A DNA stretch of 44,006 nucleotides from a virus, in the IMG/VR virus record IMGVR_UViG_3300022752_000130, positions 1-44,006 of that record; one strand, 5' to 3'. The notes below the pieces were generated by a model. The model was not told the DNA's origin. It was given only the letters and a program-made list of their open reading frames with translations, and searched no databases. The position numbers and the translations under genes were made by a program. This document shows positions 38,186 to 42,532 of the stretch, one piece after another (position 1 is the stretch's first letter; every line of letters starts with the position of its first letter).

Positions 38186-38926
38186 TTATGCTGCGCCGTA
38201 GCTTGGAAGATTTACGTTTGAACTTTCAAAAAAACTAATCATCCTGCTAGCGCGAGATTCTACCATATCAGGAGCTTTACCTTCCCAGAACAAACGCTTT
38301 GAGCGATTCATCCAAGCATCTTTATCTAACCATTTATCATCGCTTTTTCCTAAATCATCAAATAACCATGCTGCTGTAGCAGCACGAAGTTTATTTAAGC
38401 TTTCAGAATCTTTTTGATTTAATTCCTTAGCAACAAGTCCATGCACCCCACAGTGAACTTGCTCATCTCTTGAAATATCGGCTGATACTGTTCTCATGCC
38501 AATATTACCATTAAAACGAAAAAACGGTAATGCAACAAAGAAAACAGAACGTTCTATAATTGCAACTTTATGAATTGGATGGGCGGGATGTTCCATCCAT
38601 ACTTTTAAAATATTCATTACTTCACTTTCAGCTTTAACATTAGTACCATAAGCTTGCGCTACATAATTTAAAGCTTCATCATGACGTTCTTCATCTTTTT
38701 GATTTGAATGTAATGCTTCTACAATTCCAGGTGTAGATGGCAGGTCACGTTGTAAACCTTGCTCTAATAAATCTTTAACAGGCAATTCAATATGCCTTAA
38801 AGCAAGAGCTTTATATAAGGTGGCTTCAGCACCTTTTTTAACTGGTGCATTATCTACTGGAGTGGCTTGCCACGAGCGCTTCTTAGCAATCATTTGCAGA
38901 TAGGGACTGCGAATTTTAGTCGTCAT
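38186..38926 (-). CDS. nrdB: Class I ribonucleotide reductase beta subunit lacking radical Tyr, 246 aa
   Basis: Aligned by eye with E. coli NrdB: STPGIVEALHSNQKDEERH matches the helix holding Glu115 and His118 (here Glu79 and His82), but the Tyr122 position is Leu86. Other metal ligands are present: Glu125 (IIERSVFF), Glu155 and His158 (RDEQVH), with Glu47 as a candidate first ligand. Tyr243 near the C-terminus may serve in radical transfer. At 246 residues it is short (usual 320-375). It lies 43 nt after the alpha gene on the same strand. A metal-only (class Ic or Id-like) or modified radical cofactor is implied. Confidence 0.82.
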   Translation of the reverse strand: MTTKIRSPYLQMIAKKRSWQATPVDNAPVKKGAEATLYKALALRHIELPVKDLLEQGLQRDLPSTPGIVEALHSNQKDEERHDEALNYVAQAYGTNVKAESEVMNILKVWMEHPAHPIHKVAIIERSVFFVALPFFRFNGNIGMRTVSADISRDEQVHCGVHGLVAKELNQKDSESLNKLRAATAAWLFDDLGKSDDKWLDKDAWMNRSKRLFWEGKAPDMVESRASRMISFFESSNVNLPSYGAA

Positions 38927-38969: not shown

Positions 38970-40421
38970 TTATTCGGCGCAACTACTACAAAAATTAGTA
39001 ACCTTTTCTGGTGAAACAATTGTTTCATTTTCATTGCTTGAATCACTCAAGCCAAACATATCCTTGAAATCGTCATCTAATGCCGCATAGGCATCATCTT
39101 TTCGTTGCGTGTCCGAAAGAACTTGCAAAGAATAGTACAAACTGGTCTGTGATGATTCTAGCCAATTTGCCAAGAAATCACGATCATAAATCACCATATC
39201 ACTCCAGCTATTAAAGCTATAACCATGAAATAATCCTGAATATTCGTATAAAGTAACAATGCCATTTACTACTTTACAATAATTCTCCCAGCCAACTTCT
39301 TCAGCAGTTTCAACATTACCATAATCAAAACTTTCTACACCAAATGTACCACTATCTCTATCAACAAAACGAGCAATGGGAGGGGCAATTTCTGGTGCAG
39401 TGGTGAAACCTAACTTATCTAAATAACGATAAGAACATGAAGCAGTAGGAGCAATAGCAAAAGCACGATCCATTAAATAACATTGTGCCATTAAAGAAGC
39501 ATCTGCAATTGCAGCCGATAGTTCAATTACAATTTTACCTGCTGTTGTATCACGCCATACATCAGACCATGGAAGTACATCTTTATTTAGCCATGCTGTT
39601 AATGCATCACCAAAATCTTTATATGACACTTGTTGAGCAGCTAAAAAATTAGCTAAACCAATCATTCCAAGACCAACTTGCCGATCTTTAGCAGGTGAAA
39701 GGTATTCGCCACTACTATCAACTTGAGTGGTGGAATGCAATTGGCATAATTGTTCCATACCATCGACAAATGCTGCCCTGATTTCATTAATTTCACAAGC
39801 ACCCATATTTACATGCTGTAGCAAACAAGTGCCACGATGGGGTAGATATACTTCTAGGCAAACATTAGCATAAATACGTTTTCCATCTTCGTCATAACGT
39901 ATTTTATTTAACCAAAGATCACCAGAACTAATTTGTTGTAATACAGCATCAATTAATTCAGGAGAAGAATTTATCAAGAAATCATTATCTACATTTAGAC
40001 AACGTTTTACCCATGGTAATTCTTTTCTAGTAGCTTTTATAAAATCAATGGCATCAGGATGATTATAATCTAAATGCAATACTACTGCACCATTTTTATA
40101 CACTCCGCCCCTACGTAAAATTTCATTTAATGTTGAATAAATTTTACCAAAACTTACGGGACCACTTGCTACTAAACCTTTACCATTTTCATTACCTTTA
40201 CCACGAAGTTTTGATAGGTGTACTGCAACACCAGCACCATTTCGTAGCCCATGGGATACAAACCTCCAAGACTGCTCAATGCCATTAGGGCCTTCCATGG
40301 CATCTTCTACCACAAATACAGTGCAACTCACCGGCAAACGGCCTTCAGGGTTCTCTAACCAGCTTTCCACCCTTCCTGTGCGAGCAATCTTTGCGCACTT
40401 TGCATTTTCTTTTAGCTTCAT
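38970..40421 (-). CDS. nrdA: Class I ribonucleotide reductase alpha subunit, short form, 483 aa
   Basis: Catalytic residues are all present: Cys33 (LPVSCTVF; E. coli Cys225), Asn186/Cys188/Glu190 (ANVCLEV; N437/C439/E441), Cys199 (GTCLLQHVN; C462), the Tyr429-Tyr430 pair (SLYYSLQ) and the C-terminal redox pair Cys478/Cys481. The active barrel is thus complete. About 190 N-terminal residues of normal NrdA, including the ATP cone and helical domain, are missing. I use ATG 40421, since the longer GTG frame (40463) would translate a hairpin. No Shine-Dalgarno. It reduces ribonucleotides with NrdB. Confidence 0.88.
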   Translation of the reverse strand: MKLKENAKCAKIARTGRVESWLENPEGRLPVSCTVFVVEDAMEGPNGIEQSWRFVSHGLRNGAGVAVHLSKLRGKGNENGKGLVASGPVSFGKIYSTLNEILRRGGVYKNGAVVLHLDYNHPDAIDFIKATRKELPWVKRCLNVDNDFLINSSPELIDAVLQQISSGDLWLNKIRYDEDGKRIYANVCLEVYLPHRGTCLLQHVNMGACEINEIRAAFVDGMEQLCQLHSTTQVDSSGEYLSPAKDRQVGLGMIGLANFLAAQQVSYKDFGDALTAWLNKDVLPWSDVWRDTTAGKIVIELSAAIADASLMAQCYLMDRAFAIAPTASCSYRYLDKLGFTTAPEIAPPIARFVDRDSGTFGVESFDYGNVETAEEVGWENYCKVVNGIVTLYEYSGLFHGYSFNSWSDMVIYDRDFLANWLESSQTSLYYSLQVLSDTQRKDDAYAALDDDFKDMFGLSDSSNENETIVSPEKVTNFCSSCAE

Positions 40422-40431
40422 GAGACAACAA

Positions 40432-40450
40432 AGCCCGCGCTTGGCGGGCT
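40432..40450 (-). terminator. Terminator-like hairpin just before the nrdA start
   Basis: Stem AGCCCGC (40432-40438) with GCGGGCT (40444-40450), loop 5 nt, followed leftward by TTTGTTGT. The nrdA ATG is only 10 nt past it. It could terminate an upstream leftward transcript or form an RNA element at the 5' end. Confidence 0.6.
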
Positions 40451-40553
40451 GCAATGAGAACACTGCCTAGTCTAGCCCATCAGGAGACTGCTTCAACATA
40501 ATTTCATAATTCATCTTTGTCTTCTGCAATAGTTATAAAAATAAAAGAAATAA

Positions 40554-41653: not shown

Positions 41654-42532
41654 TCAACCTAAACAGAACGCTTGCCTTTCGGCTTCAGTATATTTCACGC
41701 CATGGGGAAGCTTAAAGCGCAGTCCTATGATGTGATAGCCTGAAGGATCACTAGGTCTGTGGTCCGTCAGGTCGCCATCAATGACGGATAACTGACGGTT
41801 GCCCAAATAAGCGAATTTAGGCAAAGTTTCACTCTTTTTAATGTTAAACGCTGCGGCAATATTTACCCCGTTAGAAATAGCGCTGGCAGCTAATTTGAAG
41901 TTGGCACGGTTACTGTAACCATCAAAACTAAATGTTAAGTGATAACCTAATCGCTTACATTCGGCCCAATTACGCCTAATTTTAGTGTAATCATAAAATT
42001 GAACTTTTAAGCCTGGATCGTTAGCCATCAAATAATTAAATATTTCAAAGATATTACGCTTACCTAGTGGCAATATAGTGCCAAATTTAATCCGACAAAA
42101 TCTCGCGAAATCAGGCAATATATCAAAGTCTATAGTTTCGAAGGCTATATCACTAGTTCCATTGAGTCTAAAAGCTAACGATTCACCGGGGTGATTATTA
42201 ACTTTGCCCAATATTGCGCAGATAATTAAGCGCATAAATTGCTGAGGATCGCTGGCATAGGCTAAGGTCCGGCGAATTCTGGCAGCTTGTTTAGCGTTCA
42301 TATAGACGGGATTACCTGCGAAGTGTAAGCAAATTTTGGCACAATTGCCAGCACCGGGGCAAACATTCACCCCGGAGGTGTTGGCAGGTGCTAGGTGTAA
42401 GATGTAAGTTTGAACTGCCGACTTTTCAGTTTTGGGATTAGTTGACAATAGATTGTGATGATTAAGCTTAAACTTTTTAGCAAATCCGCCTAGATCAGTG
42501 GGGAGCGTAGCACGTGAATTAATGGCAAGCAT
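41654..42532 (-). CDS. GP88 family phage protein, 292 aa
   Basis: The stretch LHLAPANTSGVNVCPGAGNC followed by AKICLHFAG..VYMNAKQAARIRRT is the hallmark of the gene product 88 family found in many phages and plasmids, with three conserved cysteines near residues 58-70. The rest (IFNYLMANDPGLKVQFYDYT, LTFSFDGYSN, FNIKKSETLPKF) fits the same family. Its biochemical role is not established; the Cys set suggests metal or Fe-S binding. It is bordered by a terminator downstream and the repeat-rich gap upstream. Confidence 0.8.
   Translation of the reverse strand: MLAINSRATLPTDLGGFAKKFKLNHHNLLSTNPKTEKSAVQTYILHLAPANTSGVNVCPGAGNCAKICLHFAGNPVYMNAKQAARIRRTLAYASDPQQFMRLIICAILGKVNNHPGESLAFRLNGTSDIAFETIDFDILPDFARFCRIKFGTILPLGKRNIFEIFNYLMANDPGLKVQFYDYTKIRRNWAECKRLGYHLTFSFDGYSNRANFKLAASAISNGVNIAAAFNIKKSETLPKFAYLGNRQLSVIDGDLTDHRPSDPSGYHIIGLRFKLPHGVKYTEAERQAFCLG

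Follow-up and report, generated by a model that had tools for sequence, protein, structure and literature searches.

How might a small ribonucleotide reductase (RNR) subunit hold an oxidizing equivalent when leucine occupies the site of the radical tyrosine? The question is raised by a gene on the minus strand of a viral DNA stretch of 44,006 nucleotides (IMG/VR record IMGVR_UViG_3300022752_000130, positions 1 to 44,006), referred to here as the window. A preliminary description, made from the sequence letters, had called the gene at 38186-38926 an RNR beta subunit, and the open reading frame, the predicted fold and the neighboring alpha gene all bear this out. The encoded protein matches PHROG 6799 (3.4e-105), and its match to Pfam PF00268 lies below cut-off (E 0.0019). 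Its compactness, 246 aa as described, is typical of the family, in which most homologues have 237-248 aa and the published average for class Ø beta is 240 aa (Burnim 2022, PMC9531940); the usual class I C-terminal extension is missing. Comparison with a near relative gave dN 0.016 and dS 0.28 (dN/dS ~0.06), and the gene is under strong purifying selection. It lies 43 bp downstream of the alpha gene. The two genes and the main elements of alpha are as follows.

38186..38926, minus strand: class Ø (Cyano SP) RNR beta subunit, ferritin-like, 246 aa (open reading frame, PHROG 6799, AlphaFold2 model)
38970..40463, minus strand: class Ø alpha (catalytic) subunit, 497 aa from GTG (match to 7urg_A)
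39858..39860, minus strand: catalytic C202 in the finger loop NVCLE (alpha residues 200-204), a class Ø motif
39132..39137, minus strand: Y443-Y444 dyad, predicted radical transfer into C202 (102 of 103 alpha homologues)
38979..38990, minus strand: C-terminal CSSC (CXXC) redox motif of alpha (sequence)

The start of alpha is uncertain, with GTG used here and an ATG at 40421. Among PDB sequences its match to 7urg_A, the class Ø protein of phage S-CBP4, has an E-value of 1.7e-194, the next PDB sequence following at 4.8e-08. The NVCLE finger loop, found in 94 of 103 alpha homologues, is a published class Ø-specific motif absent from classes I and II (Burnim 2022, PMC9531940). The tails of these homologues carry CXXC in 87 cases and CXC in 16. 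Alpha gave no ATP-cone Pfam match, and its barrel match begins at residue 45, which leaves too little sequence ahead of the barrel for an N-terminal ATP-cone. The alpha match, the NVCLE loop, the small alpha, the short ferritin-like beta downstream, Leu86 and the Asp/Asp second sphere identify the window beta as the small subunit of a class Ø (Cyano SP) RNR from a cyanophage-like siphovirus related to S-CBS4, and in the beta tree it sits in the branch containing that siphovirus. The beta gene adjoins alpha in most homologue loci. The window ORFs that were scanned contained no NrdI, glutaredoxin or thioredoxin gene. A plasmid search with beta gave no match, and one with alpha gave distant matches only, mostly to class II. 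Upstream of the RNR genes, a 292-aa ORF (41654-42532, minus strand) matches the phage protein family GP88 of Pfam (1.5e-21).

Helix C of the window beta reads KDE79ERH82DEAL86NY88V, and the spacing of E79, H82 and L86 is that of E-x-x-H-x-x-x-[Y] in class I beta helix C. To place these residues, a profile of 46 homologues (A2) was compared by hhalign with a profile of 10 class I betas, E. coli NrdB and NrdF among them (A3); E. coli residues are given in mature numbering. The alignment (E ~5e-4, probability 30-34%), weak as evidence of homology but residue-exact, pairs E79 with E115, H82 with H118, L86 with Y122 and Y88 with H124 and, further on, E125 with E204, D154 with D237, E155 with E238 and H158 with H241.

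38669..38671, minus strand: L86, at the E. coli Tyr122 position (hhalign; homologue column)
38663..38665, minus strand: Y88, the rejected alternative radical tyrosine (hhalign, helix wheel, homologues)

The hand alignment in the preliminary description, which had equated E115 with Glu79 and H118 with His82 and had put Leu86 at the Tyr122 position, is confirmed by these pairings and, for Leu86, also by the homologues. Phage records, viral contigs and genome contigs together yielded 120 non-redundant homologues, of which 114 carry Leu at position 86 and 6 carry Phe (SS120-1 among the latter). Tyrosine occurs there in none of the 120, a set whose viral-contig part comprises 80 loci kept of 597 confirmed, so that rarer exceptions are possible. 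Because the residue is Leu or Phe and never Tyr in these homologues, Leu86 is no sequencing accident; the homologue columns and the dN/dS ratio mark it as a family trait of a strongly constrained gene, and Leu versus Phe at this position is normal variation in the class Ø beta family.

The novelty that the preliminary description attached to this residue does not stand. Harrison 2019 (PMC6370689) identified the beta subunit in P-SSP7, reported that Y122 is missing and proposed a new subclass, If; the Cyano SP group of that study was renamed class Ø by Burnim 2022 (PMC9531940), who likewise reported the tyrosine missing, with "Phe or Leu" at the radical site of a short beta. Since these two studies describe the family, the missing tyrosine here is one more case of a trait already published for it. 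In a 2026 preprint (PMC12918982) the class Ø group is still described as lacking biochemical characterisation, and a different clade of viruses is reported to have Ile or Val at this position. Class Ø beta proteins can be unstable without metals (Burnim 2022, PMC9531940), and our literature search found no published determination of the metal center of any class Ø beta.

The metal ligands otherwise remain, as the preliminary description had stated: all six (E47, E79, H82, E125, E155 and H158) are present in the window beta. They are listed here with the other conserved residues.

38870..38872, minus strand: W19, proposed equivalent of E. coli W48, radical-transfer path (invariant, 120/120)
38786..38788, minus strand: metal ligand E47, helix B, Glu in place of Asp84 (invariant, 120/120)
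38681..38695, minus strand: D78-E79-E-R-H82, second-sphere Asp and ligands E79 and H82, helix C (hhalign, homologues)
38552..38554, minus strand: metal ligand E125, helix E, pairing with E204 (119/120)
38453..38467, minus strand: D154-E155-x-x-H158, D237-like Asp and ligands E155 and H158, helix F (hhalign, homologues)
38198..38200, minus strand: Y243, C-terminal tyrosine, E. coli Y356 equivalent (homologues)

D78, E79 and H82 are invariant in all 120 homologues, as are D154 and E155, while H158 is found in 119, the remaining sequence having X there. E47 lies outside the hhalign block and was matched through P-SSP7 E42 in Table 3 of Harrison 2019 (PMC6370689). The carboxylate/EXXH pattern thus occurs twice, as E47 with E79xxH82 and as E125 with E155xxH158, and the first sphere E/E/H/E/E/H with a D/D second sphere (D78 and D154) is the P-SSP7 set (D70 and D146 in the second sphere). 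W19 is likewise outside the aligned block and is proposed as the W48 equivalent from its position and invariance. All 119 homologues with a complete C terminus have Y243, and a C-terminal tyrosine is a reported class Ø trait (Burnim 2022, PMC9531940). Among the viral-contig sequences, one (L077) has Val in place of the ligand E125, the sole exception in the 120; the otherwise invariant D83 is Leu in three relatives (L077, L082 and L083).

Searches of PDB sequences with beta, by phmmer and by profile, returned no significant class I match, so a comparison of folds was needed. AlphaFold2 on A2 gave a model with a mean pLDDT of 88 and a pTM of 0.84, in which one helix spans residues 68-93 and the C-terminal tail bearing Y243 has a pLDDT below 50. 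VIA-align 2 superposed this model on class I R2 chains with Z 18-20 over ~215 residues at ~3.1 Å rmsd, the Mn/Fe class Ic C. trachomatis NrdB (Z ~19) being among the best matches. The best Foldseek matches are also R2 proteins, the first being the Mn2 class Id beta of F. johnsoniae at a marginal E-value (1.2e-3). The predicted structure thus shows a class I R2 fold for the window beta. The R2 subclasses differ by no more than 1-2 Z units, in effect a tie, and the metal is therefore not readable from the fold. Because the window beta resembles class I beta only weakly in sequence, the case for a class I-like mechanism is built on the fold and the residue pattern.

The preliminary description had taken the Leu to imply a metal-based or otherwise unusual cofactor; a metal-based oxidant is indeed the natural inference, and the first sphere E/E/H/E/E/H matches subclasses Ic and Id. 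Our main reading, to which we give a probability of roughly 0.85, is that the protein is a class Ø beta with a dinuclear Mn and/or Fe center that serves as the oxidant store and passes a hole to alpha C202. In this mechanism the six ligands would hold the dinuclear Mn and/or Fe center, an oxygen species would activate it, and the center itself would store the one-electron oxidant, because no tyrosine is present at the Tyr122 position. The hole would then move by proton-coupled electron transfer from W19, with D154, to the flexible C-terminal Y243 and on through alpha Y443/Y444 to C202, where ribonucleotide reduction would start; the active-site cysteines would be returned to the reduced state by the C-terminal CSSC of alpha. 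It is conceivable, though rather unlikely, that the cofactor chemistry of class Ø beta resembles no characterised class I subclass and that the Leu86 form is one instance of it, for example through a new metal pairing or through a path of activation that the invariant second-sphere Asp78 determines.

A stable radical on a nearby tyrosine, in what would be a displaced class Ia/Ib-like subunit, is highly improbable. The obvious candidate, which the preliminary description had itself raised as a possible occupant of the radical position, is Tyr88, two residues from the canonical site and kept in 107 of the 120 homologues. It pairs with His124, however, and is replaced in the other 13 (Phe in 10, Met in 2, Asn in 1). 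Side-chain geometry, judged from the helical periodicity of the continuous model helix 68-93, places E79, H82 and L86 within 60 degrees of one another and Y88 ~180 degrees from E79, facing away from the metal ligands; Tyr88 was rejected as a displaced radical site. Y9 is nearly invariant among the homologues and is another candidate, but the helix E counterpart of E. coli Y209 is Phe (F130) in all 120. Degeneration to a non-catalytic protein would fit the absent radical tyrosine and the relative without E125, yet is the least credible of the readings, given the dN/dS of ~0.06, the full retention of the metal ligands and the position of the gene beside alpha in most loci.

Acquisition by a phage of a true subclass Ic beta (Mn/Fe, Chlamydia-type) would explain the first-sphere ligands, which are identical to those of Ic and Id; Leu86 also fits the criterion by which Ic-type sequences are classified, a Phe, Leu or Val in this position (Harrison 2019, PMC6370689), and C. 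trachomatis NrdB aligns among the best. However, the residue before the first EXXH is Asp78 in all 120 homologues where Ic has Glu, published trees hold Cyano SP apart from Ic (both PMC6370689), so that phylogeny argues against Ic membership, and alpha belongs to a distinct class Ø clade; we regard this origin as very unlikely. A class Id-like center, in which Mn2(III/IV) would be the oxidant and a radical tyrosine would play no part, is instead a choice of metal within the main reading, and its probability overlaps with that of the latter. The first-sphere Glu set shared with Id and the leading Foldseek match make it a tentative possibility. Against it, Id keeps a tyrosine (non-radical) and has a second-sphere Cys/Ser (PMC6370689) where the window has Leu86 and Asp78, and the marginal Foldseek E-values with tied R2 subclasses give no preference for Id. 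Class Ie, in which three metal-binding carboxylates are lost, was rejected, as all the carboxylates are present in the window beta.

Four known systems come closest to that of the window. The class Ø system of S-CBP4 (7URG; PMC9531940), whose alpha is ~65% identical to that of the window, has the same NVCLE loop, YY dyad, short ferritin-like beta directly downstream, Phe/Leu site and C-terminal Tyr. The window alpha tail is CXXC, as in 10 of 24 published class Ø sequences, in contrast to CXC in S-CBP4, and the window beta, unlike that of S-CBP4, has three residues after the terminal Tyr. The S-CBP4 beta itself (NC_025464, L041:2498-3210) gives a match broken into two parts, and the CDS annotated for it stops prematurely, which suggests a frameshift in the record. 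P-SSP7 of the Cyano SP group (proposed If; PMC6370689) shares the first- and second-sphere metal residues and the missing Tyr122, its beta being 48% identical; P-SSP7 is a T7-like podovirus, whereas the head and tail genes of the window are of siphovirus type. The nearest named phage is S-CBS4 (beta 71% and alpha 70% identical), in which alpha likewise adjoins beta and the head-gene neighborhood is similar, although at the DNA level only ~1 kb (the major capsid region) of 24 kb searched matches, at 79% identity. C. trachomatis NrdB (class Ic) resembles the window beta in fold, first-sphere Glu set and lack of a radical tyrosine but differs in its Phe at the site, second-sphere Glu, larger size and separate clade.

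The A2 profile was also used to search 386 cyanobacterial genomes, and it detected a class Ø-like beta in two, one of them labelled Limnothrix sp. CACIAM 69d. Both loci (L146:709-8179 and L262:347-8673) have the order metE, small ORF, alpha, beta, second small ORF, proS, with 95-97% protein identity between them for metE, alpha, beta and proS. The small ORFs on either side of alpha-beta are paralogous to each other (28% identity, 2e-16), and the second genome carries the locus on a contig of 472 kb. The arrangement has the look of a chromosomal class Ø operon (metE-nrdA-nrdB-proS) and not of phage contamination, with capture from a phage in the distant past a possibility. Bacteria are already listed in class Ø, a clade called marine-associated (Burnim 2022, PMC9531940); the conserved chromosomal operon context in these two cyanobacterial genomes may be new, and nothing in the literature searched connected Limnothrix with class I RNR. 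Both genomes also encode the B12-dependent NrdJ. The Limnothrix NrdJ (G001:C52:58093-62469; L164, L167) is split by an extra open frame of ~2.1 kb, an intein-like interruption within a 1512-aa frame, and the NrdJ of the sister genome (G038) is uninterrupted. A class Ø-like beta of 263 aa is present in Calothrix membranacea FACHB-236 (L141:4932-5723), and no class Ø alpha was found in that genome assembly.

The window adds one member to class Ø, from the siphovirus (S-CBS4) branch. A branching point ahead of classes I and II has been proposed for class Ø, and how its beta subunit generates a radical bears on the origin of oxygen-dependent DNA precursor synthesis. In the homologue set gathered here, nearly every member has Leu or Phe at the radical site together with Asp78, W19 and the C-terminal Tyr, which makes the hypothesis of a tyrosine-free metal oxidant readily testable.
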